Source of the DNA: Thalassococcus profundi
GTDB taxonomy: Bacteria; Pseudomonadota; Alphaproteobacteria; Rhodobacterales; Rhodobacteraceae
Reading direction: 5' to 3'
NCBI RefSeq assembly: GCF_003344785.1
Contig: NZ_QPMK01000021.1
Coordinates: 26,595 to 74,696 of the forward strand
DNA length: 48,102 nucleotides
In this document: in pieces, positions 10,640-46,946 of the stretch
Numbering within the stretch: position 1 is the stretch's first letter
Layout of the letters: every line of letters begins with the position of its first letter
Notes under the pieces: model-generated
Told to the model about the DNA's origin: nothing
Databases searched by the model: none
What the model saw: the letters and a program-made list of their open reading frames with translations, nothing else
Made by a program: the position numbers and the translations under genes

Positions 10640-10656
10640 TGCTCCGATCCGGCTTA

Positions 10657-16127: not shown

Positions 16128-16201
16128 GCGCACCTCCTTGTCCCGCACTCTGCCAATCCAGCGCGTCGGTGGCCAGCCCCGTTGCCCGCCGTTTTCTCCG
16201 G

Positions 16202-16251: not shown

Positions 16252-16280
16252 ACACCGCGTCTCCATACAAAAATAAGTTA

Positions 16281-16322
16281 CCATATTGTCACGTGACTAT
16301 GGAATCACATATAAGGCCTTAT
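16281..16322 (+). promoter_or_regulatory. promoter and operator of the ArsR-AHSA1 gene
   Basis: CCATA..GTCAC / GTGAC.TATGG (16281-16302) is a near-perfect dyad with a central 10-bp palindrome, GTCACGTGAC. It overlaps a -35-like TTGTCA (16286-16291). TATAAG (16310-16315) follows at 18 bp, which predicts transcription starting at or next to the ATG (16321). A second perfect palindrome, ATAAGGCCTTAT, spans the start codon (16311-16322). Autoregulation by the encoded ArsR domain is inferred. Confidence 0.55.
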
Positions 16323-17073
16323 GGACGCGATCTTCAAAGCTCTCAACGACCCGGCCCGCCGTGCCCTGCTGGACAGCCTCCGGCAGACGGACGGGCAGAC
16401 ACTCACCGACCTGTGCGAGCAGCTGGACATGACACGGTTCGGGGTGATGAAGCATCTCAAGATGCTCGAGGACGCCCGGTTGATCGTCACGCGCAAGGCG
16501 GGACGGTTCAAATACCACTACCTCAACGCCCTGCCACTGCAGGAGCTGGTCGACCGCTGGGTCCACCCCTTCCTGCGGCCTCAGGCCCGGGCGCTGAGCC
16601 ACCTCAAGGCAACCCTTGAAGGACAGACCATGACCAGACCCGATTTCACGATGACCACGTTCATCGACTGCACCCACGACGCCCTGTGGGAGGCATTGAC
16701 CCGCGGCGAGCTGATCGCGCTATACCATTTCGCCTGTGATACCGTTCGGGGCGACATGCAGGCCCCCGGCGACAGCGTCGCCTATCTCTATCCGCACGGC
16801 GCGCCGATGCTGTCGAACCGGGTGATCTCGATCACCCCCAAGTCGCGGATCGAAATGGCCTTCGAACCCGGCTGGGGCGGCGACCGGACCCCCTCGCGCT
16901 GTGTCTACCTCGTGGAAGCGACCGCCAGCGGCATGAAGCTCACCGTGGAACATGACGACCTGCCCGCCACGCAGACCGGCGTGGCCGACGGCTGGGCGCG
17001 GTTCCTGGCGGGCGTCAAGACCTGGCTGGAAACCGGCAAAACCCACCGCTTTGCGCCGGAGATGGCCGGATGA
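16321..17073 (+). CDS. ArsR-type HTH fused to an AHSA1/SRPBCC domain
   Basis: This 250-aa protein combines two modules. Residues about 1-90 are an ArsR winged helix (ALNDPARRALLDSLRQTDG, LTDLCEQLDMTRFGVMKHLK, RKAGRFKYHYLN), without an obvious metal-binding Cys pair. Residues about 104-248 are an SRPBCC/AHSA1 ligand-binding domain (FIDCTHDALWEALT to GVADGWARFLAGVKTWLETG). The second domain is a close paralogue of the next gene. An in-frame ATG at 16630 has AAGGA six bases upstream and aligns with the N-terminus of that paralogue, so an AHSA1-only product is possible. No Shine-Dalgarno precedes the main start; the promoter position suggests a leaderless mRNA. It is probably an autoregulated repressor with a fused ligand sensor. 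Confidence 0.87.
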   Translation: MDAIFKALNDPARRALLDSLRQTDGQTLTDLCEQLDMTRFGVMKHLKMLEDARLIVTRKAGRFKYHYLNALPLQELVDRWVHPFLRPQARALSHLKATLEGQTMTRPDFTMTTFIDCTHDALWEALTRGELIALYHFACDTVRGDMQAPGDSVAYLYPHGAPMLSNRVISITPKSRIEMAFEPGWGGDRTPSRCVYLVEATASGMKLTVEHDDLPATQTGVADGWARFLAGVKTWLETGKTHRFAPEMAG

Positions 17074-17528
17074 GCACGAAACCAGACTTCATCCTGCAGA
17101 CCTTCATCCGCTGCACGCAAGCGGCGCTCTGGGAAGCACTGACCGATGTCGATCAGATGAACGCCTACCACTTCATCGCCCGCGACATCCGCTGGGACGG
17201 CGACACACTGGTGATGGATGCGGCGGACGGCAGCCCGATGTTCCGCAACCGCACGATCCGGGCCGAGCCGATGCACCGGATCGAAGCGACCTTCGCGCCG
17301 CAATGGGACGATACGCCGCCATCGCGATCGGTCTTCCTGATCGCCTGCGAAGGCGACCACTGCCGCCTGACCGTAGAGCACTATGGCCTGCATCACCCGG
17401 TGGCGACCAACGGCGTCGCCGACGGCTGGGCGCGGTGGGCGGCCGGGCTCAAGACCTGGCTGGAGACCGGCCAGAGCCACCGCTTTGCAGAGGAGACGAC
17501 GGCAGGAGCCAAGAACGCACCTGGCTGA
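17070..17528 (+). CDS. AHSA1/SRPBCC domain protein
   Basis: This 152-aa START-like (SRPBCC) protein overlaps the preceding gene by 4 nt (ATGA). It shares TFI.CT..ALWEALT and GVADGWAR...G.KTWLETG..HRF with the C-terminal half of that gene, showing local duplication. AHSA1-type proteins bind hydrophobic small molecules in a deep cavity. The last dozen residues (AEETTAGAKNAPG) have no counterpart in the paralogue, and the C-terminal coding sequence overlaps the remnant of a MAPEG gene. The C-terminus may therefore have been altered by the decay of that gene. Confidence 0.86.
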   Translation: MSTKPDFILQTFIRCTQAALWEALTDVDQMNAYHFIARDIRWDGDTLVMDAADGSPMFRNRTIRAEPMHRIEATFAPQWDDTPPSRSVFLIACEGDHCRLTVEHYGLHHPVATNGVADGWARWAAGLKTWLETGQSHRFAEETTAGAKNAPG

Positions 17529-17907
17529 CCCGCACCGCGATCCTCGCGGCGTCGCTGCGGGTTCCCTGCATCGTCGGCGTCAACAGGCACCCCGCCGCCG
17601 ACGCCTTCGCCCGGTCCGCGCCCCTGACCGACTGTCCGGCCTGGGTGCACCGGGAGCATCTGAACCTCTTGGAACAGGCGATGCCCTTCGCGGTGGTGGT
17701 GATCTTCGCGCATCTCGCGGGCGGGACCAACGCGATCACGGTCTGGGCCAGCGCCGCCGCCTTCCGGCTGCGCCTGGCCCATGCGGCCGGCATGATTTCG
17801 GACATGGCCGGATGCCGCTGCACCCGCTGATCGTCACCGCCGGCCGGCTTTGCATCCCGGCCATCGCCGCCGCGGTCCTGACCGCCTGGAACGACGCGGG
17901 GCGGTGA
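17513..17907 (+). pseudogene. decayed MAPEG-family membrane protein gene
   Basis: From 17513, frame 2 reads WLTRTAILAASLRVPCIVGV, then AWVHREHLNLLEQAMPFAVV and FAHLAGGTNAITVWASAAAF. This is the hallmark of MAPEG proteins (ER/NAHxN..E motif and hydrophobic helices). The frame stops at 17828-17830. After a shift around the GCCGGATG near 17810 the C-terminal helix continues as PLHPLIVTAGRLCIPAIAAA to a stop at 17905-17907. No start codon is present in frame near the beginning. Charged residues occur where family members have aromatic ones (LRVP, AGRL), and the usual RAHRAHxN seems shortened. These signs indicate a recent pseudogene. Family identity is firm; the number of lesions is my reading. 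Confidence 0.72.
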
Positions 17908-17916
17908 CAGCCACCG

Positions 17917-17990
17917 CCCCTTCATCTTGCCGATAAACCTCCGGAGAGCACGAGAGGCAGCGCCTCTCGTACCGCCTCCGCGGAGGCGGT
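17917..17990 (-). repeat. modular intergenic repeat, copy B, with adjacent palindrome
   Basis: On the minus strand a perfect 20-bp palindrome with half site ACCGCCTCCG (17990-17971) is followed by a hairpin (ACGAGAGGC, GCT, GCCTCTCGT; 17970-17950), then GCTCTCCGGAGG and the tail TTTATCGGCAAGATGAAGGG. It lies between the MAPEG remnant and the convergent MFS gene. The palindrome touches the MFS stop codon. It is almost identical to copy C at 30.4 kb over about 55 bp. Confidence 0.75.
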
Positions 17991-19237
17991 CACCCCCGCT
18001 CCACCTCGCGCAACCGGAGCGCCATGATCCCGCCCGCCGCACTCAGAACCGCGAAGCCCAGAAGCGCCGCCACCGGCCCGACAAAGCTCAGCGCCCCGCC
18101 GATCAGACCGGTCACCAGCAGCAGCACGCCGATGGCGGTGTTGGCCAGCGCCGCGTAGGTCGACCGCGCATCCTCGGGCGCCATGTCGACAAGGTAGGTC
18201 GACCGCCCGCTGCGCACGCCCTGGTAGGCGATCATCAACACGAAGAGAATCGCCGGGATCACGCCGTAGACCGAGGCCCACCCCAGAAGCGCCGCCGCAA
18301 CCGCCGCCAGCATCGCCACTGCGCCGGAAAGGCCAGACAGCATCAGCACCCGGCGCGACGACACGTCCGACAGCCGCCCCCAGACATAGGAGCTGACAAA
18401 GGCCGCCGCCGCCGAGGCCAGCACCAGCGCGCCGAGCCGCGACAGCGCGCCCTCGCCGCCCTCGAGCAGCACCAGGTAGGGCGGGGCCAGCGCTGTGGCG
18501 GTGAGCAGACCGCGCACCGCGATGAACCAGCGGAACTGCGCATCCTCGCGCAACGGCGTGAAATCCAGACCTTCCCGCGCCTCGGGCTCCGACGGCTTTT
18601 CCCGCAGCGTCGAGAACACCGCCGCGGCGCAGAACCACAGCGCCGCCGCGAGGCCGATGGCGACGATCAGCGCCGGCGTGTTCTGCACCAGCCCCGACAT
18701 CAGCAAGAGCGCGAAGACCAGCACCGCGATGGACGCCACCGACCCCGCCACGCCCTTGACCGACCCGCGCCGGGTCTTGGGGATGGTCTTGCCGAGAATG
18801 TCCTTGTAGCTGACCGAGGCGCAGGCCCGCGACACCGCGAGAACCGCCAGCGCCGCGACGATGGCGAGCCCCGCGGCCCAGCCTTCCAGCGTCAGCGCGA
18901 AGAGACAGATGGCGGCCGCCGCGAGGCCCTGCCCGAGGCAGCCGGTGATCCAGGCCCATTTGCGATGCCGCATGCTCTCGACCCAGCCCGCCAGGAACAG
19001 CTGCGGCAGCAGCGCCCCGGCTTCGCGCACCGGCACCAGCGCGCCCACCAGCACGGCGGGGGCGCCAAGGCCGTTCATCAGCCAGCTCAGCACCAGTTTC
19101 GGGTCAATGAGACCGTCCGCCACCTTGGTCATCGACAGCGACACCATGTGCCGCGCGCCGTTGCGCGCCTCGGTCCGGGTCGCCTCGCCGTCGTCGTCGG
19201 TCAGCGTGCCGTAAAGTTCGGTGTTCAGATCTGTCAT
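17990..19237 (-). CDS. MFS transporter
   Basis: This 415-aa integral membrane protein has 10-12 hydrophobic segments. A basic cytoplasmic loop between helices 2 and 3 (ESMRHRKWAW), a long central loop with charged residues (TLREKPSEPEAREGLDFTPL) and a second-half loop VWGRLSDVSSRRVLML (a motif A-like G..SD..SRR) place it in the major facilitator superfamily. A hydrophilic 30-residue N-terminus precedes the first helix. The substrate cannot be inferred from sequence. It is divergent from thrS with a short intergenic gap. Confidence 0.87.
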   Translation of the reverse strand: MTDLNTELYGTLTDDDGEATRTEARNGARHMVSLSMTKVADGLIDPKLVLSWLMNGLGAPAVLVGALVPVREAGALLPQLFLAGWVESMRHRKWAWITGCLGQGLAAAAICLFALTLEGWAAGLAIVAALAVLAVSRACASVSYKDILGKTIPKTRRGSVKGVAGSVASIAVLVFALLLMSGLVQNTPALIVAIGLAAALWFCAAAVFSTLREKPSEPEAREGLDFTPLREDAQFRWFIAVRGLLTATALAPPYLVLLEGGEGALSRLGALVLASAAAAFVSSYVWGRLSDVSSRRVLMLSGLSGAVAMLAAVAAALLGWASVYGVIPAILFVLMIAYQGVRSGRSTYLVDMAPEDARSTYAALANTAIGVLLLVTGLIGGALSFVGPVAALLGFAVLSAAGGIMALRLREVERG

Positions 19238-19289
19238 GCGGCCGCCGCCCTTCGTGTTGTCCCTGCGAATCCCCCGCCAACGCCCTTGC

Positions 19290-19318
19290 TTGACAGCCGG
19301 TTCCGCTGTTGCGACATA
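19290..19318 (+). promoter_or_regulatory. putative thrS promoter
   Basis: A perfect -35 TTGACA (19290-19295) is followed after 17 bp by GACATA (19313-19318), about 60 bp before the thrS ATG. The -10 match is poor. No T-box-like leader is visible. Confidence 0.5.
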
Positions 19319-19380
19319 GGGCGCGCATCATAACCCGCAACCGGGCGTTCCGTGGGCGCCAAACCGACGAGGAGGCCGAC

Positions 19381-21366
19381 ATGGCCCAGATCTCCCTGAC
19401 TTTTCCCGATGGCAACGCGCGTGAGTACGACGCTGGCGTGACCCCTGCCGAGGTCGCCGAGTCGATCTCCAGGTCGCTGTCGAAAAAGGCGATTTCCGCC
19501 ACCGTCGATGGCCGGCACTGGGACCTGCAATGGCCGATCGAGGCCGACGCCGGCATCGCCATCAACACCATGGCCGACCGCGCCCCGGCGCTGGAACTGG
19601 TGCGCCACGACCTCGCGCATATCATGGCCCGCGCCGTGCAGGAGATCTGGCCCGACGTGAAGGTCACCATCGGCCCGGTGATCGAGAACGGCTGGTATTA
19701 CGACTTCGACCGCGCCGAACCCTTCACCCCCGAGGACCTGGGCGCCATCGAAAAGAAGATGAAAGAGATCATCAACAAGCGCGACCCGGTCCGCACCGAG
19801 GTCTGGGAGCGCGATGTTGCGATCAAGTATTACGAGGACCGCGGCGAGCCCTACAAGGTCGAGCTGATCGAGGCGATTCCGGGCGACGAGCCGCTGCGCA
19901 TGTACTGGCACGGCGACTGGCAGGACCTGTGCCGCGGCCCGCACCTGCAACACACCGGTCAGGTCCCGGCGGATGCCTTCAAGCTGATGTCGGTGGCCGG
20001 CGCCTACTGGCGCGGCGACAGCAGCCGCGCGATGTTGCAGCGTATCTACGGCGTGGCCTTTCCGAACAAGGAAGAGCTCAAGGCCCATCTGCACATGCTG
20101 GAAGAGGCCGCCAAGCGCGACCACCGCAAACTGGGCCGCGAAATGGATCTCTTTCACATGCAGGAGGAAGCGCCCGGCCAGGTCTTCTGGCACCCGAACG
20201 GCTGGACGATCTACACCACACTGCAGGACTACATGCGCCGCAAGCAGCGCGCCGGCGGGTACAAGGAGATCAACACGCCGCAGGTCGTGGACCGCAAGCT
20301 GTGGGAGAAATCCGGCCACTGGGACAAGTACCAGCACCACATGTTCATCGTCGAAGTCGACGAGTCCCGCGACGGCGAGGAGGACGACGCCAGCGTCAAG
20401 AACAAGGCCGAGACGCGGATCAACGCATTGAAGCCGATGAACTGTCCCTGCCACGTGCAGGTCTACAACCAGGGCCTCAAGTCCTACCGCGACCTGCCCC
20501 TGCGGCTGGCCGAATTCGGATCCTGCAACCGGTTCGAACCCTCGGGCGCGCTGCACGGCATCATGCGGGTGCGCGGCTTCACCCAGGACGACGCGCATAT
20601 CTTCTGCACCGAAGAGCAGATCCAGCAGGAATGCGCCCGCTTCATCGAGTTCACCGCCGACATCTACCGCGAACTGGGCTTCGATAGCTTCGAGATCGCC
20701 TTTGCCACCCGCCCCGAAAAGCGCGTCGGCACCGAGGAAAGCTGGGATTACGTCGAGGGCGCGCTCGAGAACGCGATCAAGGCCGTGGGCCGCGACTACA
20801 GGCTGGAGCCGGGCGACGGCGCCTTCTACGGCCCCAAGCTCGACTTCTACCTGACCGATGCGATCGGCCGGGTCTGGCAATGCGGCACCTTCCAGGTCGA
20901 CCCCAACCTTCCCGAGCGGCTCGACGCAAATTACATCGCCGCCGACGGGGCCAAGCACCGGCCTTTCATGCTGCACCGCGCGACGCTGGGCAGCTTCGAG
21001 CGGTTCATCGGCATCCTGATCGAGAACTGGGAAGGCAAGCTGCCGTTCTGGCTGGCGCCGCGGCAGGTCGTCGTGGCCTCGATCATCTCGGAGGCGGATG
21101 ACTACGTACACGAGGTCGTGGCGGCGCTGACCGCCGCGGGCGTGCGCGCCGAAGCCGATGTCCGCAACGAGAAGATCAACTACAAGGTCCGCGAACATTC
21201 GGTCGGCAAGGTGCCGGTGATCCTGGCCGTGGGCGCACGCGAGGTCGAGGAACGCACCGCTACCCTGCGCCGCCTTGGCGAAAAGCAGACCAGCGTCGTG
21301 GCGCTGGAGGAGCTGGTGCGCGACCTCGCGGCGGAGGCGACCCCGCCCGACTTGCGCGGCGCATGA
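19381..21366 (+). CDS. thrS: threonyl-tRNA synthetase
   Basis: This 661-aa class II synthetase has the full domain order. A TGS domain spans about residues 1-62. The editing domain has HDLAH (His76, His80) and DLCRGPHL (Cys184, His188) as zinc/hydrolytic residues. The catalytic core contains MNCPCH (zinc Cys about 355), [13 protein letters not shown] and the motif 3 region [22 protein letters not shown]-terminal anticodon-binding domain follows. The insert [20 protein letters not shown] within the core is typical of alphaproteobacterial ThrRS. The ATG at 19381 is preceded by GAGGAGG. It overlaps the next gene by 4 nt. Confidence 0.98.
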
Positions 21367-21878
21367 TCGGGCCGGACGCCACCGGGCTCCTCGCTGCCGA
21401 GCGCTACCTTCGGTTCCACGACCTGGAGGCGGGACCGTCCTTCGATGCGGTCACGCTCTGGGTCGACGGCGCCGAGGTGTCGGAGCGCGAGGAAATGGCC
21501 GGCACCGGCGACCCGGAGGTCGACCGCATCCTCGGCCCGATGCATGCGATCGAAACCGGCGCGGGCTGCCTGCGCTACGAGATCACATTCGAGAACTGCG
21601 TGGCCTATGGCTGGCGGGACGAAAGTTACGTGGTGCCCGAAGCGGACGAGGATGTCTCGACCATGCTACGGCGCTACGACCGGTCGGCCTATCTCGATTA
21701 CATCACCGCCAGCACATTCGCCGCCGACGCCGCGCCCTTTCCGCTGCAGCATTTCGCGCTGGTGACGCTGGACGCGGTGATCGACGTGGTCTGCGCGGAC
21801 GCCCCGCGCGTGCGCGCGCAGATGCTGGGGCCGGACGATCCCGGCCCGAAACCGGGCCAACCGCGCGATTTCGTCTGA
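21363..21878 (+). CDS. conserved-looking protein of unknown function, coupled to thrS
   Basis: This 171-aa acidic, soluble protein has no signal peptide or membrane segment. Its start overlaps the thrS stop by 4 nt (ATGA), so it is likely translated by coupling. It contains several aromatic/acidic blocks ([36 protein letters not shown]) but no motif I recognise. Codon use and GC match the neighbours, which supports a real gene. A link to translation or tRNA charging is only positional. Confidence 0.75.
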
Positions 21879-22206
21879 GCCGGGTCGTGTAACAGCGCTC
21901 ACGTCTCGCGAGAGTGGCCCAGGTGCCGCACCGCAGCGACCAGCGCGCCGCTGTAACATTCCAGCGCTGGACCCCTTCGAAACCTTTCAGCCCCCCGTCA
22001 CGAGGCGCGCGGTTTTCCCGTGAAATCAAAACTCTGGTTGGCAGAGGTGTTTCACACGCCCCTGACGGGGGCTGACGCACGCGTGATGCACGCGGGCGTG
22101 AATGGTGCGGATTTCCGGCCTGGGTCAATCTGTCGCTGTCACCGGGATGCTCCCGGGCAGACAGGGTCGACAGACCATCCAATTCACCCAAGAGGAAACT
22201 CATCCG
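21879..22206. other. intergenic region upstream of bufferin operon
   Basis: About 330 bp without a convincing gene. It should contain the bufA promoter. Visible elements are two GTAACA words (near 21890 and 21953), of which the second is followed 19 nt later by CGAA, loosely like an ECF-sigma promoter. A CCGGGA-TGC-TCCCGG hairpin at 22142-22156 would fall in the leader. The bufA Shine-Dalgarno (GAGGAAA) is just before 22200. The operator is not identified. Confidence 0.45.
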
Positions 22207-22506
22207 ATGTCCAACACCATGAAAACCGCAGCCATCATCGGCGCCGTCGCCGCGTCCTTTGCCGCCACCGGCGTGCAGGCACAGGAGCAGGAAAAGTGCT
22301 TCGGCGTCAGCCTTGCCGGCGAAAACGACTGCGCCGCGGGCCCCGGCACCACCTGCGCCGGCACCTCCAAGGTCGACTACCAGGGCAACGCCTGGACGCT
22401 GGTCGAGGCAGGCACCTGCACCGAGATCGAACTGCCGGAAATGGCCGACGGATCGGACCGCATGGGATCGCTTGAAGCGCTCGACCGCGACCTGCCGCAG
22501 GGCTGA
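22207..22506 (+). CDS. bufA1: bufferin precursor peptide (DUF2282 family)
   Basis: This 99-aa protein has a clear signal peptide (residues 1-25, cleavage after GVQA). The short mature part has four cysteines (Cys31, 42, 50, 71) arranged as [28 protein letters not shown] and EAGTCTEI. This matches the DUF2282/BufA1 group of periplasmic RiPPs. In that group an MNIO enzyme converts cysteines into copper-binding heterocycles, buffering copper. The three following genes encode the expected maturase, partner and DoxX protein. The ATG at 22207 has GAGGAAA upstream. Which cysteines are modified cannot be read from sequence. Confidence 0.88.
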
Positions 22507-22513
22507 AATGCGC

Positions 22514-22543
22514 GGCGGGGTGCGGCTCGCGCCGCGCCCCGCC
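22514..22543 (+). terminator. stable hairpin between bufA and bufB
   Basis: GGCGGGGTGCGGC (22514-22526) pairs with GCCGCGCCCCGCC (22531-22543) over a TCGC loop, with one T-G pair. It begins 7 nt past the bufA stop. No T-run follows, so it is more likely a partial terminator or 3'-end protector that makes precursor mRNA outnumber enzyme mRNA. Confidence 0.6.
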
Positions 22544-22567
22544 ACCCTTATCCGCAAGAGGTGACCG

Positions 22568-23428
22568 ATGTTCGACCTGACCGCCCCCGACCGTCTGCCC
22601 GCCGCCCCCGGCGTCGGCTTCAAGGCGCAGCATTTCGCCGAGATCACCCGTGACGCCGGGCCCGTGCGCTGGCTCGAGATCCACGCCGAGAACTACATGG
22701 GCGACGGCGGACGCCCCCTAGCGCAGCTGCGCCATCTTGCAGAGCGCTTTCCGATTTCCGTGCATGGCGTGGGCCTGTCGATCGGCGGCGAAGGCCGCCT
22801 CGATCCCGATCACCTCGCCCGGCTCAGAAAGCTTTGCGACTGGCTGCAGCCGGCGAGCTTTTCCGAACACCTGGCCTGGTCCACCCACGACAGCCACTTC
22901 CTGAACGACCTGTTGCCGCTGCCCTACACGCAAGCCACGCTGACCCGCGTCGCCGATCACATCGACGCGGTGCAGGAGGCGCTCGGCCGGCCGATGCTGC
23001 TGGAAAACCCCTCGAGCTACCTCGCCTTCGCGGAGTCGACGCTGAGCGAGACCGAATTCCTGGCCGAGGTCGCGCGCCGTACCGGCTGCGGCCTGCTGCT
23101 CGACGTCAACAACGTCTTCGTCTCGGCCACGAACCTTGGCTACGCGCCGCGGGACTATATCGACGCCTTCCCGCTGGAACGGGTCGGGGAAATCCACCTG
23201 GGCGGCCATGACGACGACCACGACGACCACGGCGCGCCGCTCTTGATCGACAGCCACGGACGCGAAGTGGCGGATCCGGTCTGGGCGCTTCTGGAGTACA
23301 CCCTCGCGCGGTCCGGTCCGCGGCCGCTTCTGGTCGAATGGGACACCGACGTGCCCGCCTGGCCGGTCCTGGCCGAAGAGGCCCGCAGGGCCGAGGAGGC
23401 GCTGTGCCGCGCCACGCTGCCCGCATGA
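22568..23428 (+). CDS. bufB: MNIO-family (DUF692) bufferin maturase
   Basis: This 286-aa protein is a TIM-barrel multinuclear non-heme iron-dependent oxidative enzyme. Candidate iron ligands lie at strand ends: EIHAENYMG (about 37-45), SEHLAW (about 99-104), LENPSSYL (about 145-152), [16 protein letters not shown] (about 177-192), GEIHLGGHD (about 207-215) and DSHGREV (about 228-234). MNIO enzymes of buf operons convert precursor cysteines to copper-binding groups. A His/Asp-rich stretch ([11 protein letters not shown], about 212-222) is notable. A Shine-Dalgarno AAGAGGTG precedes the ATG. It overlaps bufC by 4 nt. Confidence 0.92.
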
Positions 23429-24162
23429 CCGTCCAGTCCGCCTTTCGAGCCGCGCTTCTGGACGCGGACCGGGATGTGCCCTCCGGGCTGACCGACGGCG
23501 CGGGCCGGCCGGCGGGCCGCCGCTTCGCGGTCTACCGCAACAACGTCGCGGTCTCGCTGCGCGAGGCGCTGGAAACCGGCTTTCCGGTGGTCGCAAAGCT
23601 GCTGGGTCCGGAAAATTTCCACATGGTCGCGGGCGTCCACCTGCGCGCCGCGCCGCCCCGCTCGCCGCTGATGATGCAGTTCGGCGCCGATTTTCCCGCC
23701 TTCCTCGACAGTTTCCCTCCTCTGGCCCGCCTGCCCTATCTCGGCGACGTGGCGCGGATCGAACTGGCCCTGCGCCGCGCCTACAACGCCGCCGATGCCG
23801 CGCCGGTCGATCCCGCGCGTCTGAGCCGCCTCGGCGAAGACCGGCTGCACACCGCGCGCCTGTCACTCGCCCCGGCAGTGTCGGTGATTTGCTCGCCCTG
23901 GCCGATCTTCGCCATCTGGGCCCGCAACAGACGCCCCGGCAGTCCGAAACCCATCCCCGGCGCGCAGGACGTGGTGATCCTCCGCCCCGCCTTCGATCCC
24001 GAACCGCACCTGCTGCCCCCGGGTGGCGGCGCCTTCGTCGCGGCGCTGCTGACCGGCGCGCCGCTGGCCCGGTCCATCGACGCCGCAGGCAACGGGTTCG
24101 ACCTTTCCGCAGCCCTGTCGCTGCTTCTGGCGCAGGGCGCGATCACCGATATCCAACCCTGA
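23425..24162 (+). CDS. bufC: BufC-type partner protein (DUF2063 domain)
   Basis: This 245-aa soluble protein has the DUF2063 N-terminal helical domain with [20 protein letters not shown] and [17 protein letters not shown] (about residues 27-65). A C-terminal region likely to act in precursor recognition ([20 protein letters not shown]) follows. In buf systems this protein recruits the precursor to the MNIO enzyme. Start and stop are coupled to bufB by an ATGA overlap. Some annotation pipelines call this family putative DNA-binding; the operon context argues for the RiPP role. Confidence 0.87.
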
Positions 24163-24173
24163 AAGGCCTTGTC

Positions 24174-24749
24174 ATGGACCGCATTCTCGACCTGCACGAC
24201 CGTGCTTTTGCCGCCGTTGAGGCCCATGCCGGCGCCCTCGTCCCGCTGCTGGCGCGAGGCGTCTTCGCCGCCACGCTGCTGGTCTATTTCTGGAGATCCG
24301 CGGCGACCAAGCTCGGCGACGGCGTCTTCGGCTTTCTGTCGCCTTCGACCGGCGCCTATGCGCAGATCTTCCCCAAGGCCTTCGAGGCGGTGGGCTACGA
24401 TGCCTCGCAACTGACGGTGTTTCACTGGGCCGTCGCGGTGGCCGGCACCTGGGCGGAATTCCTGCTGCCGCTGCTGATCGTGCTGGGTCTCTTCACCCGG
24501 CTGAGCGCGCTCGGCATGATCGGCTTCATCGCGGTGCAGAGCCTCACCGATCTCTACGGCCACGGCGGCATCGCCCATGCAGAAACGCTGGGCGCCTGGT
24601 TCGACGCGGCCCCCGACGGCGTGATCCTGGACCAGCGGGCCTTCTGGGTGTTCACCCTGTCGGTTCTGATGATCCGCGGCGCCGGCGCCCTGTCTCTGGA
24701 CGCCGCCCTGCACCGCCAGTTACGCGGCGCACCCGAGGCCGCACGATGA
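24174..24749 (+). CDS. bufD: BufD-type DoxX-family membrane protein
   Basis: This 191-aa inner-membrane protein has about four hydrophobic helices (ALVPLLARGVFAATLLVYFW, FLLPLLIVLGLFTRLSALGM and others) and the DoxX-like layout. DoxX proteins commonly end bufferin and other MNIO operons, perhaps acting in redox handling or precursor export; this is inferred. It begins 11 bp after bufC and is followed by a tRNA gene on the opposite strand. Confidence 0.85.
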   Translation: MDRILDLHDRAFAAVEAHAGALVPLLARGVFAATLLVYFWRSAATKLGDGVFGFLSPSTGAYAQIFPKAFEAVGYDASQLTVFHWAVAVAGTWAEFLLPLLIVLGLFTRLSALGMIGFIAVQSLTDLYGHGGIAHAETLGAWFDAAPDGVILDQRAFWVFTLSVLMIRGAGALSLDAALHRQLRGAPEAAR

Positions 24750-24761
24750 TGTGCCGAAAGC

Positions 24762-24838
24762 TGGCGATCCCTGAAGGACTCGAACCCTCAACCTGCTGAT
24801 TAGAAGTCAGCTGCTCTATCCAGTTGAGCTAAGGGACC
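24762..24838 (-). tRNA. tRNA-Arg (anticodon TCT)
   Basis: The minus strand folds as a standard cloverleaf. Acceptor GGTCCCT pairs with AGGGATC (one G-U). The D arm is GCTCAACTGGATAGAGC. The anticodon stem CTGAC / loop TTCTAAT has anticodon TCT, which reads AGA. The T arm is GAGGGTTCGAGTCCTTC. The discriminator G is followed by an encoded CCA. The fold was done by eye. Confidence 0.95.
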
Positions 24839-24895
24839 GCTGTTGCGGGTTCTGCCCGGTTTCGCCCGGCGAGGCAAGACACCTGCGGACCCCGG

Positions 24896-25363
24896 TCACA
24901 GCCGTCGCGTCATGAACACGCTCAACGGGTCGGGGCGGTAGTGGGCGAAGGGCGGGCACGGCACGAAGCCCGCGCTTTCGTAGAGCCGCCGCGCCGCGGC
25001 AAAGCCCGGCTCCGCGCCGGTTTCGAGCCAGGCGCTATCAGCCCCCGCGCGCCGCGCTTCGTGAAGCAGCCCCTCCAGCAGGCGCCGCCCGAGCCCCTGC
25101 CCGCGTGCGGCTTCGGCCGTGTGCATGCTCTTCAGCTCGACCGCCCCCGGGCCGATGGTCTCGAAAGCGCCGATGGCCTGCACTGCGCCTTCGGCGTCTC
25201 GCAGCACGAAAATCTGCGCCCCCGAGGCGGTCAGTTCCTCGGCGGTCTTGACGTGGCAGCTGTCCGGCGGGGTCTGTGCGCGCATCAGCGCGTGATGCGC
25301 GGCCAGCAGGTCCGCGACGCCAGCATCCTGCGCGGCGGCGCGGACCAGCGGCGCCTCGGTCAA
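24896..25363 (-). CDS. GNAT-family N-acetyltransferase
   Basis: This 155-aa protein has the GNAT core. Motif A is [20 protein letters not shown] (Q/RxxGxG/A for acetyl-CoA), and the C-terminal [20 protein letters not shown] is the YE.AGF segment. No ATG is available at the family-like start. I propose TTG at 25363, which overlaps the stop of the preceding complex I-related gene as TTGA, implying translational coupling. An internal ATG (MRAQTPP) would remove the first strand and helix. Substrate unknown. Confidence 0.8.
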
Positions 25364-25671
25364 TGGGTCCAGGCGCCCCGGCGGTCGACGGCGAAATTCT
25401 CGGCGTAGCCGCGGGGACGCACGTTCGCCTTGCGCTTTTTCGGTTCGATCACCTGGGCGTCGATGCCATGATCCTTGGCGTATTCCACCGCGGCGTCGCG
25501 GGTGTCGAAGCGCAGCCGCACCTGGCTTTGGGTGTCGGACGACGATGTCCAGCCCATCAGCGGGTCGATTTCGCGGGCGCTGTCCGGGGCGAAGTCCAGA
25601 ACCCAGTGATGGGTCTTGGCCTGCCCGGAGGACATGGCGGTTCGGCTCGGTTGGTAGATACGCGCGCGCAT
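25360..25671 (-). CDS. NDUFS4-like ETC complex I accessory subunit
   Basis: This 103-aa protein matches the family of NADH dehydrogenase accessory subunits homologous to mitochondrial NDUFS4. Its features are [19 protein letters not shown] at the start, [20 protein letters not shown], and the C-terminal [19 protein letters not shown]. It is characteristic of alphaproteobacteria and sits at the complex I hydrophilic arm. The ATG at 25671 fits the family length; the longer upstream frame is not family-like. It stands apart from the nuo operon, as is usual. Confidence 0.92.
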
Positions 25672-25886
25672 GCAGCAGACTCCTGTTTCCTCTGCGGCGC
25701 AGTATCGTGAATTCGCAGCCTGCCCGCAACGTGCGATTTGCCGCGATTTTCGACATCCGCTCCCGATCTGCCGGTTGCGCCGCACGTGCGCCGGGTCGTC
25801 CACCGTCCACCGAGCTCGGGATCATCTTGCGCGGACACGCCCGCTGCGGGCATCCTTTCGGATATTGCGCGGATGCAGGTGTCGCC

Positions 25887-26741
25887 ATGTCAGATGACCA
25901 AAGCCTCAGAGACCGGGTTCTTGTCCTCGAAAGCCGGCTGATCGAATTGAAGGACCGGATCGAAAAGCCCCCCAAGCCGCCGCTGTGGAAGCGGATCGTG
26001 AGTTGGGAGATGCTCAGGAACCTGATGGTCGTCGTCGGCATTCCGGCCGCGGGCTGGGGCGCCTATACGGTGCTGGACGAACAGCTGATCAGCCAGAAGG
26101 CGCTGGAACGCCAGGCCCGCCTGTCCATCGCCAGCGCCGAACTGGCGGAATTGCAGAGCTTCAACGAAGGCGTCTTCATCCAGCAGGCGCAGGACAACGA
26201 CCGCGTGGCCTTTGCCAAGACCGAGGCGCAGCGCGGCCGGGTCGAACGGCTGACGAAGAACCTCGTGGCCTTCTGGCAGGACTACCCCGAAGAGCTGACC
26301 CGGTCGGAAAAGACCACGCTGGCCGAGGCGCTGCTGGGCCTGCAACAGACCGATACGGCGCTGGCGGTGGCGAACACGGTGGACGAGACCGCCATGGGGC
26401 CGATCTGGCAGGGCGACATGGACCTGCTGCGCGGGCGCATCCTTTTCGCCCGTGGCCCGGCGCAGGACCCGGACGCTGCCCGCGACGCGCTGCGTGCCGC
26501 GCTGGCCCATGCGGAAACGCATCCCGACGACGGTGTCCGCCTTGGTTTGATGGAAAAGTATGCGGCCGTCCGCCTCCAGAACGAGATCTGGCTCGACACC
26601 CGCTGCTCCGACGTGGTGCCGATCGCCGATTTCCTGCAAACCCTGGTCGACGACGCCGACCCCGAGGGCGGTGTGGACGAGGTGCGCGAGGTGACGCTGC
26701 GCGTGCTCGACGCCCACGCGCGGCAGTGCCCGGACAGCTGA
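25887..26741 (+). CDS. membrane-anchored protein of unknown function
   Basis: This 284-aa protein has a short coiled-coil-like N-terminus (LRDRVLVLESRLIELKDRIE, residues 7-26) and a single membrane segment near residues 48-65 (MVVVGIPAAGWGAYTVL). A mainly helical C-terminal region rich in Ala/Glu/Asp with TPR-like spacing (AEALLGLQQTDTALAVANTV, ARDALRAALAHAETHPDDG) follows. No enzyme motif is visible. A role as a scaffold is inferred. It is divergent from the NDUFS4-like gene and upstream of uvrB, from which it is separated by 72 bp. The ATG at 25887 lacks a strong Shine-Dalgarno. Confidence 0.75.
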   Translation: MSDDQSLRDRVLVLESRLIELKDRIEKPPKPPLWKRIVSWEMLRNLMVVVGIPAAGWGAYTVLDEQLISQKALERQARLSIASAELAELQSFNEGVFIQQAQDNDRVAFAKTEAQRGRVERLTKNLVAFWQDYPEELTRSEKTTLAEALLGLQQTDTALAVANTVDETAMGPIWQGDMDLLRGRILFARGPAQDPDAARDALRAALAHAETHPDDGVRLGLMEKYAAVRLQNEIWLDTRCSDVVPIADFLQTLVDDADPEGGVDEVREVTLRVLDAHARQCPDS

Positions 26742-26813
26742 TCGCCAAGACCGGCCCGCGCCGCCTTGCATCTTGGCCCGCGCATGACAAATAAGAGGAC
26801 AAGGAGGCGCCCC

Positions 26814-29021
26814 ATGCCCTATGCCCATTCCGACAAGTCCGAAACGACGCCCGTCCTGATGCACGCGCCCGCGCCGGACGTGAAGACCCGCGAAAAGCTC
26901 GAAGGCGGCATCCGCTTTCGCATGGCGACCGAATTCGAACCGGCAGGCGACCAACCCACCGCGATCAAGGAGCTGGCGCAGGGCGTCCTGGACGGCGAAC
27001 GCGACCAGGTGCTGCTTGGGGCCACAGGCACCGGCAAGACCTTCACAATGGCCAAGATCATCGAGGAAACCCAGCGCCCGGCGATCATCCTCGCCCCCAA
27101 CAAGACGCTGGCGGCGCAGCTTTACGGCGAATTCAAGGGGTTCTTTCCCGACAACGCGGTCGAGTATTTCGTCAGCTATTACGACTACTACCAGCCCGAG
27201 GCCTACGTGGCGCGGTCGGACACCTATATCGAGAAGGAATCGCAGATCAACGAACAGATCGACCGGATGCGCCACTCGGCCACCCGGGCGCTTCTGGAGC
27301 GCGACGACGTGATCATCGTCGCCTCGGTCTCGTGCATCTACGGCATCGGGTCGGTGGAAACCTACGGCGCGATGACGCAGGATCTGCATGTTGGACAGGA
27401 ATACGACCAGCGCAAGGTCATGGCGGACCTCGTGGCGCAGCAGTACCGCCGCAACGACCAGGCCTTCCAGCGCGGCAGTTTCCGGGTGCGCGGCGACAGC
27501 CTCGAGATCTTTCCCGCCCACCTCGAGGACCGCGCGTGGAAGCTGAGCTTTTTCGGGGAAGAGCTTGAGGCGATTACCGAATTCGATCCGCTGACCGGCG
27601 AGAAGACCGGCAGTTTCGACCGCATCCGGGTCTATGCCAACAGCCATTACGTGACGCCGAAGCCGACGATGCAGCAGGCGGTCATCCAGATCAAGAAAGA
27701 GCTGCGCCAGCGGCTCGACCAGCTTGTCGGCGAAGGCAAGCTGCTGGAGGCGCAGCGGCTGGAGCAGCGCACCAATTTCGACATCGAGATGCTGGAGGCC
27801 ACCGGCGTCTGCAACGGGATCGAGAACTATTCGCGCTACCTGACGGGCCGCGCGCCCGGCGAACCGCCGCCCACCCTGTTCGAATTCATCCCCGACAATG
27901 CCATCGTCTTCGCGGACGAGAGCCACGTCTCGGTTCCGCAGATCGGCGGCATGTACAAGGGCGACTACCGGCGCAAGTTCACCCTGGCCGAACACGGTTT
28001 CCGCCTGCCGTCCTGCATGGACAACCGCCCCCTCAAGTTCGAGGAATGGAACGCGATGCGGCCGCAGTCGGTCTTCGTATCCGCCACGCCCGCGGCCTGG
28101 GAGATGGAACAGACCGGCGGCGTCTTCACCGAACAGGTGATCCGCCCCACCGGCCTTCTGGACCCGCAGGTGGAAATCCGCCCGGTGGAGATGCAGGTGG
28201 ACGATCTTCTGGACGAGGTGCGCAAGGTCGCGGCCGACGGTTACCGGACGCTCTGCACCACGCTGACCAAGCGCATGGCCGAGGATCTGACGGAATACAT
28301 GCACGAACAGGGCATCCGGGTGCGCTACATGCATTCCGACATCGATACCATTGAAAGAATTGAAATTCTGCGCGACCTGCGCCTTGGCGCCTTCGACGTG
28401 CTGATCGGCATCAACCTGCTGCGCGAGGGTCTCGACATTCCCGAATGCGGGCTGGTGGCCATTCTGGATGCGGACAAGGAAGGCTTCCTGCGCTCGGAGA
28501 CCTCGCTGATCCAGACCATCGGCCGGGCGGCGCGGAATGCCGAGGGCCGCGTCATCATGTATGCCGACCGGATTACCGGGTCGATGGAACGCGCGCTGGC
28601 CGAGACCAACCGCCGCCGCGAAAAGCAGATCGCCTATAACGAGGAGCACGGCATCACGCCCGCGACGATCAAGAAGAACGTCGATGACATTCTGCAGGGC
28701 CTCTACAAGGGCGACGTCGACATGAACCGCGTCACCGCCAAGGTCGACAAGGCTCACGGCGGCAACCTGCAGGCGGTGCTGGACGGGCTGCGCACCGACA
28801 TGCGCAAGGCCGCCGAGAACCTCGAGTTCGAGGAGGCCGCGCGCCTGCGCGACGAGGTCAAGCGGCTGGAGGCGGTGGACCTTGCCGTCGCCGACGACCC
28901 TCTGGCACGTCAGTCGGCCATCGACGCGGCGACGGAGGCCGCGACCAAGGCCTCGGGCCGGTCCACGGCGGGACGTGGCGGGATGCGCGGCGGCAATGTG
29001 CAGCGGCGGAAGAAGCGGTAG
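26814..29021 (+). CDS. uvrB: excinuclease ABC subunit UvrB
   Basis: This 735-aa helicase-like subunit of the UvrABC nucleotide-excision repair complex has all landmarks. Walker A is GATGTGKT (about 69-76), the beta-hairpin region is [11 protein letters not shown], and Walker B appears as [36 protein letters not shown] and TIGRAARN (motif VI) follow. A C-terminal UVR domain ([18 protein letters not shown]) contacts UvrC. The ATG at 26814 was chosen because AAGGAGG lies 7-13 bases upstream; an earlier ATG at 26784 lacks this. The tail is Arg/Lys-rich (QRRKKR). Confidence 0.98.
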
Positions 29022-29216
29022 GAATCAGAGTGTCGGGAAACTCCTGAGCCCGAGATTGTCCAAGGTCTCCGGCGATGCGCGCGACGGGGGGCAGAGCTTC
29101 GCAAAGCGCCGCGCAACACCGTACTCGCGTCAAGGTTCCTTCACGGCGAAAAAACATTTCCGGGAACGGATGTCACGATCCCGTGCGTTGTCCTGCCAGA
29201 ACAAAGGAGACGCACA

Positions 29217-29402
29217 ATGGAATATGGACTTCTGGGGCTCATCGTCCTCATCGCCGACATCTACGCGATCTACAACGTCTTTACCTCCGGGGCCTCGACC
29301 CTGGCGAAAGTCCTGTGGATCCTCGCCATCCTGATCCTGCCGGTGCTTGGCTTCATCGCCTGGCTGGTGGCTGGCCCCCGTGGCGGTTCGGTGCGCGTCT
29401 GA
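29217..29402 (+). CDS. small membrane protein (PLDc_N-like)
   Basis: This 61-aa hydrophobic protein has two predicted membrane helices (residues about 3-23 and 30-52), ending VAGPRGGSVRV. The pattern GLIVLIADIYAIYNVFTSG with VLWILAILILPVLGFIAWLV is that of the stand-alone PLDc_N domain found before cardiolipin-synthase-like enzymes and as small solo proteins. The function of solo forms is unknown. An AAAGGAG Shine-Dalgarno precedes the ATG, and a strong terminator follows 30 bp after the stop. Confidence 0.82.
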   Translation: MEYGLLGLIVLIADIYAIYNVFTSGASTLAKVLWILAILILPVLGFIAWLVAGPRGGSVRV

Positions 29403-29431
29403 GCGCAACCCGGATCACGGAGAAGATGTTC

Positions 29432-29459
29432 AGCGCGGGCCTTCGGGTCCGCGCTTTTT
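29432..29459 (+). terminator. intrinsic terminator after small membrane protein gene
   Basis: AGCGCGGGCC pairs with GGTCCGCGCT around a TTCG tetraloop and is followed by a T-run. One G-T pair sits in the stem. Confidence 0.88.
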
Positions 29460-29625
29460 CGTGCCGGAAGGGGCCATCGGAGGAAGTTTTTCAGTCACCC
29501 CGTCATTCCCCTTGCGCGACTCATGCGCTGGCCTCATATGCGCGCAATCCGGGCGTGAGGCTCCGTCCGGCGGCTGCAGGGGCGAGCACGCCCCGAGAGC
29601 GCCCTCCTCTTCATGAGACACGTAC

Positions 29626-29880
29626 ATGCGTTCGCTGATCGCCGCGGCCCTGCTGGCCGTAACCGCCGTTCCCGCCTTCGCCGACAGCACCCAGGGCACC
29701 GTCCTGGCCTACGACCGCGTCGCCAACGTGATCGTGCTCGAGGACAAGACCGTCTGGTCGCTCGAGACCCTGAAGACCGTGCCCGAAGGCCTCAAGGCCG
29801 GCGACACGGTCGAGATCAACTTCACCTCCAACGCCGATAACGGCTGGGGCAGGATCAACGCGGTCACCATCAAGGGCTGA
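29626..29880 (+). CDS. small periplasmic protein (DUF1344-like)
   Basis: This 84-aa protein has a signal peptide (about residues 1-19, cleaved after AFA). The mature domain is short and beta-rich: GTVLAYDRVANVIVLEDKTV, then LKAGDTVEINF. The pattern of a one-residue-per-turn beta barrel ending in a GD.V.I.F strand resembles DUF1344 proteins. Function unknown. GC and codon use match neighbours. Confidence 0.75.
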   Translation: MRSLIAAALLAVTAVPAFADSTQGTVLAYDRVANVIVLEDKTVWSLETLKTVPEGLKAGDTVEINFTSNADNGWGRINAVTIKG

Positions 29881-29961
29881 GGCGGCGCGGACCGTGTCAC
29901 GACCCCGAGAGCGGCGCGATTTCGCACTGCCCTCGGGGCGGTTACGGGATAGACTGCCGAC

Positions 29962-30348
29962 ATGATCCGGTCCTTCAGCCTTTGCGCCCTTCTGGCCCTC
30001 GGCGCCTGCGCCACGCCGCGTGAGCAATGCGAATCCGACGCCGCCGCGCCCTATCGCGCGGCGCTGTCCGAGCAGGCGGACAACGCCCGCGACCTGGCCC
30101 GCGGCTATGTCTTCAAGACCCGGTTCGAGGAGCGGGTCCGGCGGCGCGCCTGCCCGATCCCGGGCGGCGGCTTCTATCCCTGTTTCGAACGCGATCTGCA
30201 GCCGGTGACCCGCAAGGCGCCGATCGACGCTCCGGCTCTGCGGGCACGGCAGGCGGAGCTGGCACGGATCCTGCCCCAGCTGCGCAAGACCGCCGGGCGG
30301 GACGTGGCGCAATGCCGGGCGCTTTATCCGGTCGAAGAGGCGGGGTGA
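29962..30348 (+). CDS. small putative lipoprotein of unknown function
   Basis: This 128-aa protein begins with a lipoprotein signal (RSFSLCALLALGAC, lipobox LGAC with Cys15). The mature region contains four further cysteines (EQCES, RRACPIPGG, YPCFERD, AQCRAL), which could form two disulfides in the periplasm. The rest is helical and Arg-rich. I do not recognise a family. It faces the hemerythrin cluster, with a repeat between them. Confidence 0.72.
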   Translation: MIRSFSLCALLALGACATPREQCESDAAAPYRAALSEQADNARDLARGYVFKTRFEERVRRRACPIPGGGFYPCFERDLQPVTRKAPIDAPALRARQAELARILPQLRKTAGRDVAQCRALYPVEEAG

Positions 30349-30370
30349 GGCGTTCTGGATGCCAGCGGCA

Positions 30371-30425
30371 TACGAGAGGCGCTGCCTCTCGTGCTCTCCG
30401 GAGTTTATCGGCAAGATGAAGGGGC
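30371..30425 (+). repeat. modular intergenic repeat, copy C
   Basis: TACGAGAGGC, GCT, GCCTCTCGT forms a 9-bp hairpin, followed by GCTCTCCGGAG and TTTATCGGCAAGATGAAGGG. It matches the reverse complement of copy B (17.9 kb) with a single 1-nt deletion over about 55 bp. It lies between convergent genes. Confidence 0.78.
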
Positions 30426-30553
30426 GCGCGGGTTCGGCGGATCGACACATCCTGAAGCGTCCGGGTTAAACCCGCAGCACGGAATGCGGCCTGAAACCAA
30501 AGGTTTCAACACGTCGAGTGATGCATCTTGTTTCAAGCTGAACGCAAAACGCT

Positions 30554-30619
30554 CTAGATCAGCGGCACGAAGGGCACGCCGCAGCCGGACAGCAGGGTCA
30601 GGAATATCAGCGCTCTCAT
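30554..30619 (-). CDS. 21-residue putative lipoprotein coupled to hemerythrin gene
   Basis: Starting at the ATG at 30619, which overlaps the hemerythrin stop by 4 nt (ATGA), the frame reads MRALIFLTLLSGCGVPFVPL plus Ile, then TAG at 30556-30554. The product has a hydrophobic signal and a lipobox LSGC, so the mature lipidated peptide would be only about nine residues. It is too short for ordinary gene finders. The overlap and the lipobox argue that it is real; conservation has not been tested here. Confidence 0.6.
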   Translation of the reverse strand: MRALIFLTLLSGCGVPFVPLI

Positions 30620-31176
30620 TGCAGGCCCTCCGGTCCGTGTTTGAGGATGACCGGAACGATCAGGTCCTCTTCATCCTCAAGGTGTCGGTTCAGCATATGC
30701 TGGAAGGACATCAATTCCGAGTGGAAATCGCCCGACTCGCCGGTGTCCTGCAGCACCGCGTTGGCGCTGTCGGTGAAGCGGTTCAGCAGCCCGTCCATGG
30801 CGTGGTGATCCTTGTCGAGGATGCCGAAGCCGCGTAGCAGGGTCGGCTCCAGCCCGCTGAGCACCGGGAAGTAGTGGTGATCCTCGATCTGGTGGTGGCC
30901 GTGCAGCTGGCTGACCAGCATGCCGCCGTAGCGCGCGAGGCGCGGCTTGTACTGCGCGGGGTCGATGCGGCCGTCGACGGCGGCCTCGGCATCCTCCCGC
31001 AGCAGGGAGCCCAGCTTGCGGAACATCAGGTGCCGTTCCAGCCAGAACTGCACCAGTCCCGCGAAATTCGGATGCGCCTCCCACCGGTCGCGCGGGAAGG
31101 CGTCGAGCAATTCCAGCAGCGCCTCGGGGATGCGGTCGCGCTTGGCGAGATCGAGATCGTCGGACAGGTCGGTCAT
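30616..31176 (-). CDS. hemerythrin domain-containing protein
   Basis: This 186-aa four-helix-bundle protein has the histidine/acidic ligands of the HHE family: LERHLMFRKL (about 48), LHGHHQIEDHHYFPVL (about 91-106), DKDHHAMDGLL (about 121) and a C-terminal FQHMLNRHLEDEEDLIVPVI (about 158-177) with HxxxE-type spacing. The di-iron site likely binds O2 or NO in the cytoplasm. It is followed by the coupled 21-aa lipoprotein frame and preceded by a UspA gene, suggesting a stress-related cluster. Confidence 0.88.
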   Translation of the reverse strand: MTDLSDDLDLAKRDRIPEALLELLDAFPRDRWEAHPNFAGLVQFWLERHLMFRKLGSLLREDAEAAVDGRIDPAQYKPRLARYGGMLVSQLHGHHQIEDHHYFPVLSGLEPTLLRGFGILDKDHHAMDGLLNRFTDSANAVLQDTGESGDFHSELMSFQHMLNRHLEDEEDLIVPVILKHGPEGLQ

Positions 31177-46943: not shown

Positions 46944-46946
46944 GGG

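Follow-up and report, generated by a model that had tools for sequence, protein, structure and literature searches.

The DNA analyzed here is a 48,102-nt stretch of contig NZ_QPMK01000021.1 from Thalassococcus profundi (hereafter the window; the whole genome comprises 4,784,847 bases in 94 contigs), in which a short intergenic element recurs. Read on the transcript strand, the element consists of a hairpin with a purine arm (R) and its pyrimidine partner arm (Y1), followed by a second pyrimidine run (Y2), GG(A/G), a T-rich tract of 5 nt, one to four loose bases, and a purine-rich tail. An earlier note on this DNA had listed six copies sharing a tail or the same layout, at positions 1, 10657, 16202, 17917, 30371, and 46871; the tail is present at all of these except 16202. 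The tail sequence TTTATCGGCAAGATGAAG is found exactly at 17920–17937 (−), 30404–30421 (+), and 46884–46901 (+), with one mismatch at 46919–46936 (−), and with three mismatches at 10653–10670 (−), giving five matches with up to three mismatches where 100 shuffles of the window predict none. Gene contexts rest on a home-made gene caller, run on the window and on 1.2 Mb of the T. profundi genome.

The copy at the window edge (1–17, +) is cut, leaving TTATTG and the tail GCAAGATGAAG (7–17). Copy B (10653–10684, −) is of a type that we call T3, with GCCTCCGGCGGGAG (10671–10684), TTTATAA, and the tail GCAAGATTAAG (10653–10663, one change). It had been described, together with the site at 16202, as lying between convergent genes, but its neighbors are a gene at 10812–11507 (−) and the RNase P RNA at 10205–10601 (−). 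The site at 16202 (C) proves to be a tail-less relative spanning 16207–16254 (−), with the hairpin GTGGGGGC..GCCCCC, a mini hairpin, CTCCCCC, GAGG, and TATTT but no purine-rich tail, and it alone sits in a divergent gap. Copy D (17920–17971, −) belongs to the GAG class, with R GAGAGG (17963–17968), Y1 CCTCTC (17952–17957), Y2 CTCTCC (17943–17948), GGAGG (17938–17942), TTTATCG (17931–17937), and the tail (17920–17930); it lies between convergent stops at 17907 (+) and 17990 (−), not between divergent genes as first thought. Copy E (30372–30421, +), of the same class, has R GAGAGG (30374–30379), Y1 CCTCTC (30385–30390), Y2 CTCTCC (30394–30399), GGAG (30400–30403), TTTAT (30404–30408), and the tail GCAAGATGAAG (30411–30421), and since it stands behind a stop at 30348 (+) and faces the stop of a gene at 30616–31176 (−), its context is convergent rather than tandem. 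What had been taken for one copy at 46871 is really two opposing ones, arranged head to head between two minus-strand genes, a tandem and not a divergent context. F1 (46870–46901, +) is of the T3 type, with GCCTCCGGCGGGAG (46870–46883), TTTATCG, and the tail (46891–46901). F2 (46919–46968, −) is of the C-run class, with the hairpin GTGGGGGG-CCAG-CCCCCCAC (46949–46968), the linker A, Y2 CCCCCC (46942–46947), GGAGG (46937–46941), TTTATTG, and the tail (46919–46929), and lies downstream, in the sense direction, of a gene at 47042–47647 (−).

Across the whole T. profundi genome, TTTATCGGCAAGATGAAG gives 150 matches with up to three mismatches (68 forward, 82 reverse), compared with two for the reversed pattern, which far exceeds the approximately ten copies per genome that the earlier note had set as a minimum. 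In the 1.2 Mb, GCAAGATGAAG occurs exactly at 38 intergenic places and one genic place, the reversed word at none and one, respectively, and in a gap-based word count the tail is the top word. Three main layouts can be distinguished in this genome. The GAG class reads ACGAGAGAC-GCT-GTCTCTCGT-G-CTCTCT-GGAG(G) or GCGAGGGG-CCAG-CCCCTCGC-G-CTCCCC-GGAG; the C-run class reads xxGGGGG-loop-CCCCCxx-A-CCCCC-GGAG(G), sometimes with an extra mini hairpin before the last C run; and the T3 class, GCCTCCGGCGGGAG, is a plain short hairpin, CTCC-GGCG-GGAG. All three mostly run on into TTTAT, one to three loosely kept bases, and GCAAGATGAAG. An alignment of 62 copies shows a drop in information from 2.0 to 0.4 bits immediately behind the tail; these copies were chosen by an exact tail and an upstream TTT, so those letters are not themselves evidence. 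Sites found by their hairpin alone carry the exact tail in 38 of 44 cases (GAG 21/23, C-run 9/10, T3 8/11), and the other six comprise three with a one-change tail, one with a further hairpin before the tail, and two with none. The tail is a separate, nearly invariant block within a genome. In three copies in the 1.2 Mb (C13:52102 on the plus strand, and 349127 of C13 and 177191 of C1 in minus-strand coordinates) a hairpin with a GTTTTGC..GCAAAAC-like core is inserted between the T-rich tract and the tail, which suggests that the tail may act in RNA, where an inserted hairpin would keep its ends close.

The element follows stop codons in the sense direction and is locked to gene 3′ ends. Among 46 copies with up to three mismatches in the 1.2 Mb and the window, 35 lie behind a sense gene and none is divergent; four lie inside predicted genes, three of which resemble chance coding matches. 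Gaps of at least 40 bases in the 1.2 Mb were also scored by the tail: a copy is present in 16 of the 93 convergent gaps and in none of the 164 divergent ones, and among 386 tandem gaps a sense copy is present in 16 and an antisense copy in eight, one gap being counted in both. Divergent gaps account for 58,036 of 185,052 intergenic bases, so chance would place about a third of the copies there. The non-random placement relative to gene ends that had been anticipated is thereby borne out, while the argument that divergent copies make a terminator role unlikely fails, because tailed copies are all but absent from divergent gaps. The same holds in other genera, for which 80 named loci, totalling 624,829 bases, were taken from the listed matches of a contig scan that gave at least 113 stretches, and genes were called with the same caller: of 87 exact hits, 61 are intergenic with a sense upstream gene (32 convergent, 25 tandem, four without a downstream gene in the locus), only one is divergent, seven are inside predicted genes, and three are at locus edges. 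The median distance from stop to tail is 71 nt for the T. profundi copies (35 values), and that from stop to GGAG is 61 nt in the other genera (61 values). Sense and antisense k-mer counts in which convergent ends were mixed were uninformative.

That the hairpin arms differ between copies yet remain paired, as had been noticed in the window, also holds across copies and genomes. Pairing was analyzed in 96 elements from 49 sources, T. profundi being counted once, in which R, Y1, and Y2 share one length and the linker is 1 nt. Although the arms had to be no more than purine and pyrimidine runs, Y1 complements R exactly in 93 of the 96. The base pair below R forms in 95 (84.7 on average and at most 89 when partners are shuffled), and the next pair out in 92, using four pair types (shuffled mean 40.3, maximum 56). 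The pairing is compensatory, as the earlier note had proposed. What that note had overlooked is the second pyrimidine run, which varies in step with the hairpin, and the variation of the tail from lineage to lineage.

Of 133 elements with a hairpin, 124 were kept after removal of mis-parsed outer hairpins, and in 96 of these the G run was measurable. Y2 is as long as the G run in 89 of these 96 (shuffled mean 37.8, maximum 54; none of 10,000 shuffles as high) and, outside T. profundi, in 70 of 75 (shuffled mean 30.6, maximum 46). Among 49 elements with mixed arms, Y2 complements R in parallel in 46 and is its antiparallel copy in none. A pattern in which three positions of R, Y1, and Y2 could be any purine or pyrimidine, as appropriate, while the CTC start of Y2 was fixed, matches 34 of 394 genomes; at most ten places per genome were listed, and Y2 is the parallel complement in 100 of the 104 places listed. 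Where R4–6 is non-symmetric, 11 of 12 listed places are parallel, none is antiparallel, and one, in which R alone has changed, is neither; the parallel cases include GAGGGA with CTCCCT three times in G157 and GAGAGG with CTCTCC in T. profundi, G169, G232, and G367 (genomes are labelled G001 upward, T. profundi being G000, and loci with L). When all six positions of Y2 are left free, the pattern is matched in 67 of 394 genomes (0 for the control), and 146 of 150 listed places in 48 genomes are parallel and none antiparallel; the four exceptions are one changed Y2, two cases of R alone changed, and another hairpin in G231 (GAGGAA, Y2 CCTTCT), a GAG-type hairpin that obeys neither rule. Of the seven non-symmetric cases in this listing, which overlaps the CTC-fixed set, four are parallel, none antiparallel, and three neither. 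A seven-base version, GAGGGGG with CTCCCCC, holds in 27 of 27 places (CTC start fixed). Across 45 genome-by-type rows (the types from the CTC-fixed pattern plus two T. profundi types), R4 is associated with Y2-4 (Fisher p 4e-8), as is R6 with Y2-6 (p 0.005), while the crossed pairs R6 with Y2-4 (p 0.01) and R4 with Y2-6 (p 0.14) are weaker, all these values ignoring relatedness.

Neither Watson–Crick pairing of R with Y2 nor copying of Y1 explains parallel complementarity of this kind. It is the code that a pyrimidine-motif triplex follows when read on the transcript strand, or a purine-motif triplex when read on the other. A rival explanation would be that these are ordinary weak intrinsic terminators spread by duplication, in which Y2 is an alternative 3′ arm pairing with R beside the T-rich tract and the tail is copied baggage. 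It would account for the minimum-energy fold of a composite C-run sequence, in which CCGGGGG pairs with Y2 plus GG directly before AG-UAUUU, and for the approximately 50 bp that are nearly identical among the T. profundi GAG-class copies. It also gains from a mini hairpin CTC..GAG in the GAG-class fold, which explains the CTC start of Y2 but not why positions 4 and 6 follow R, and from the sole informative mixed-arm C-run element, which departs from the mirror. As an antiparallel partner of R, however, Y2 was seen in 0 of 49 and 0 of 150 listed mixed arms; the non-symmetric R4–6 cases are parallel in the 11/12 and 4/7 of the two overlapping sets, the rest being neither; and baggage would hardly end in so sharp an edge or be missing or displaced at only 2/23 GAG-class and 1/10 C-run hairpin sites. 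We therefore consider duplicated weak terminators unlikely, though the most credible of the competing explanations.

A point against this reading is that the GAG class alone shows the mirror; in the C-run class the parallel and antiparallel rules coincide. In the latter, mixed arms occur at only two places in 395 genomes, of which the informative one, in G384 (R GGGAG, Y2 CCTCC), fits neither rule and the other, in G443, looks like chance. Consecutive C+.G-C triads are unfavorable at neutral pH, which would favor the purine motif of the other strand or short-lived contacts. If the triplex forms, the element would resemble the 3′ triple helices of MALAT1 and viral ENE RNAs, with a third strand in a hairpin groove near an RNA 3′ end that blocks 3′–5′ decay. 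Those helices are U-rich and eukaryotic or viral; here, in contrast, the third strand is C-rich and would require either protonation of C or, on the opposite strand, the purine motif.

Among bacterial repeats, the closest resemblance is to the intrastrand-triplex motifs PIT/BoxC and TMECO of enterobacteria, which the consulted passages of Holder et al. (2015; PMC4666352) describe as abundant, with TMECO occurring 3610 times in 262 genomes. The likeness lies in a repeated intergenic three-run motif, with a hairpin and a third run in mirror symmetry, present in many copies per genome and patchily among relatives, with some inverted pairs. According to the same passages, TMECO is CCCTCNCCC-N3-6-GGGNGAGGG-N3-GGGNGAGGG with 9-nt stems, whereas the runs here are mostly 4–7 nt and ordered R-Y-Y on the transcript strand, and the motif continues into a T-rich tract and tail and is tied to gene 3′ ends; on this comparison by reading, order, stem length, and sequence all differ. 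The dimensions given there for triplex repeats (three runs, stem 6–15 nt, loops 1–6 nt) fit the GAG class only (runs of 6–7 nt, loop 4–5, linker 3), the C-run class having runs of mostly 4–5 nt, below the 6-nt stem. The strand opposite the transcript (R2-R1-Y) might be what matters, folding as a purine-motif triplex at the DNA level and acting on polymerases or genome stability rather than in RNA. That strand agrees with the purine-motif class, in which G-G-C triads are described as the source of stability (PMC4666352), and mirror symmetry is a signature of a triplex on either strand. Yet for TMECO those passages report a stable triplex in vitro, data not supporting stable formation in vivo, no orientation bias, and no promoter or terminator activity, while the present element does have a strand orientation, sits at gene 3′ ends, and carries a near-constant tail, and an element acting purely in DNA appears to us improbable.

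Taken together, placement, orientation, the hairpin at the T-rich tract, and the convergent pairs point to 3′-end formation, and we put the probability that this is an orientation-locked 3′-end element of Rhodobacteraceae transcripts at roughly 0.6. As the RNA polymerase leaves a gene, the hairpin would form and the T-rich tract would weaken the hybrid, so that a fraction of transcripts would terminate at this point. Exonucleases would then be kept from the new 3′ end by the hairpin, along which Y2 may lodge as a third strand. The tail may be recognized separately, either in RNA or in the DNA downstream, by a reader that would co-evolve within each lineage. Both termination and triplex formation are inferred. 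In RNAfold predictions for four sequences the hairpin lies at the T-rich tract or 2 nt before it, and three of the folds have z scores from −2.3 to −2.5. Like this element, intrinsic terminators stand behind stop codons, in sense at gene 3′ ends and often between convergent genes; they consist of a GC-rich hairpin running directly into a T-rich tract, a layout that the element may share. The present element differs from them in its short T tract (TTTAT or TATTT), the conserved block beyond it, the third run that tracks the hairpin, and the many copies between close co-directional genes.

Several observations weigh against a role in 3′-end formation. Reversed copies behind a tandem gene make up 7 of the 46 in T. 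profundi and 15 of the 87 in other genera, and the tail-less relative at 16207–16254 sits in a divergent gap. The next gene starts within 100 nt of the tail in 26 of 42 sense-tandem copies (12/17 in T. profundi, 14/25 elsewhere). The run of T-rich bases is short, the T3 sequence folds no more stably than its shuffles (z −0.36; 66 of 200 equally good), and a simple terminator scan of 16000–31000 flagged neither D nor E on its own strand. A complementary distribution, with the module replacing ordinary terminators, was expected and not found: canonical hairpin-plus-T terminators occur at 5 of 17 module ends and 48 of 169 other convergent ends, frequencies that are about equal, the numbers being small. 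The element also seems dispensable, because genus-mates nearly lack it. G001–G004, of the same GTDB genus, contain GGAG..CAAGATGAAG only once or twice each, for the most part as a single common string that resembles the start of a ribosomal protein gene; G004 has no match to the wider GGR..AAGAWGAAG pattern and one GAG-class match; and a gap-based word count in 400 kb of G002 revealed no repeated module.

The short T tract, the close co-directional copies, and the lack of a trade-off with terminators would make partial termination or 3′-end stabilization more likely than a full stop. Examples of such copies are those between gap and fba in Cereibacter sphaeroides (CCGGGGGGCGCTGCCCCCCGGACCCCCCGGGATATTTCGGCCAGAATGAA) and between a NuoF-type gene and fdhF in Roseinatronobacter. 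The stronger proposal, that a triplex of Y2 of the transcript, or of R2 of the other strand, along R:Y1 is selectively maintained at a great many Rhodobacteraceae gene ends and, with a lineage-typical tail and a co-evolving factor, forms or guards mRNA 3′ ends, is tentative, and we hold it to be doubtful rather than probable. If true, the element would join the intrastrand-triplex repeats as one in which three runs covary at the sequence level and which has a definite place in the expression of genes. It bears on whether such triplexes occur and function in bacteria: in several genera, three of its positions change together as the triplex code demands, at a constant place relative to genes. 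The element is also a candidate for an unrecognized 3′-end signal in a family much used for work on photosynthesis, marine biology, and denitrification.

The earlier note had mentioned similar sequences in Rhodobacteraceae, and the pattern does recur across the family. GGR..TWTWT..AAGAWGAAG matches 164 of 296 Rhodobacteraceae genomes, with counts per genome from 0 to 150 (overlapping hits at one site count separately, and a lone hit may be due to chance), while its reversed control is nearly always 0 and at most 4. Outside the family the pattern is at chance level: none of 189 genomes of other families in the class has more than six matches, and the one with six has three control matches. The genera of the listed loci (Roseivivax, Nioella, Defluviimonas, Allgaiera, Mameliella, Roseovarius, Pseudorhodobacter, Gemmobacter, and others) we take to be Rhodobacteraceae; metagenome-assembled genomes (MAGs) with broader labels, one labelled Sphingomonadales, are also among them. 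An unbiased k-mer test in other genomes, a weak one, returned few words from G258 and G013 at 200 kb. The full element is also found in L326, L327, L330, and L334 (IMG/VR), four of 12 contigs from a viral collection, perhaps as host flanks or proviruses.

The tail is lineage-typical, nearly constant within a genome and different between genomes, and among the places listed one predominant tail per genome tends to hold. In T. profundi it is NGGCAAGATGAAG; in G132, GGAGTATTT-NNN-GCAAGATGAAG (109 matches, every listed one of that form); in G247, NNN-CCAAGATGAAG (34/34); in G317, mostly CCAAGATGAAG; in G258 and G224, mostly CCAAGAAGAAG; in G207 and G136, mostly GGATATTT-NNN-CGAAGATGAAG; and in G066 it is mixed. 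The same plan with other tails was seen in many genera, and since the patterns used for relatives required AAGAWGAAG, tails such as CCAGAATGAA in C. sphaeroides were missed. The tail is an example of a genome-wide block nearly constant within a genome and different between genomes. Two readings of it were dropped, that of AAG-ATG-AAG as a start codon, other lineages having AAGAAGAAG, and that of a DNA-uptake sequence, the density being low (150 per 4.8 Mb).

As genus-mates are nearly without the repeat and other genera of the family have it, it seems to be gained or lost as a set. Patchiness would suit a mobile repeat tolerated at gene ends and moved by a RAYT or similar enzyme, as would the many near-identical copies and the head-to-head pairs at nearly constant spacing. 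REP/REPIN elements are abundant intergenic palindromic repeats, single or in inverted pairs, and in these respects the present element is like them; it differs in being strictly oriented to genes, with compensated arms and a predominant tail that changes between genomes. The domain Y1_Tnp (PF01797) is absent from ten of 12 genomes searched, with weak hits in G247 and G321; T. profundi is among the ten, no RAYT having been found in it, and we consider mobility of this kind very improbable.

Literature searches, mostly without subscription papers, found no description of the element, and among the listed papers matching its letter strings none is on Rhodobacteraceae by title. The main text of PMC4666352 contains no occurrence of Rhodobacter, Alphaproteobacteria, Paracoccus, Roseo-, Ruegeria, Dinoroseobacter, Jannaschia, or Sinorhizobium, though its 5246-sequence database may contain such motifs unnamed. 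In the consulted part of a study of Rhodobacter sphaeroides 3′ ends (PMC7866481), no motif is reported in the 15 nt upstream of PNPase-sensitive ends, a result that does not test the present element, and the passages on the UpsM terminator in PMC5089854 give no motif. The Rhodobacterales motifs HRC-8-4 and uORFC-8-2, as described in the portion seen of PMC8632094, are different things. We regard the element as a putative triplex-code repeat locked to gene ends. An Rfam search of the whole window at the gathering threshold matched only the RNase P RNA (10205–10601, −) and a tRNA (24765–24838, −), and no family for the repeat.

Further hairpins accompany the element. Directly before the constant hairpin of T. 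profundi GAG-class copies stand hairpins that differ in sequence, often ATCGCCC..GGGCGAT; in the window these are CCGCCTCCGCGGAGGCGG (17972–17989, −), before copy D and behind the stop of the gene at 17990–19237 (−), and ATGCCAGCGGCAT (30359–30371, +), before copy E. The F2 hairpin alone recurs without a tail as GTGGGGGGCCAGCCCCCCAC (46982–47001, −). Head-to-head pairs have a near-constant 17–22 nt between their tails (measured by hand), so that a pair can fold as one long hairpin; they occur in the window at 46884/46919 and elsewhere in T. profundi at C5:90335/90373, C1:72497/72534, C2:116853/116891, and C56:41291/41331. Back-to-back T3 pairs with similar spacing are found in L244, a Pseudorhodobacter MAG, and in G247 (C7:455361/455423), that in L244 being an inverted repeat of about 32 bp per arm, tails included, with mismatches only in the loose bases.

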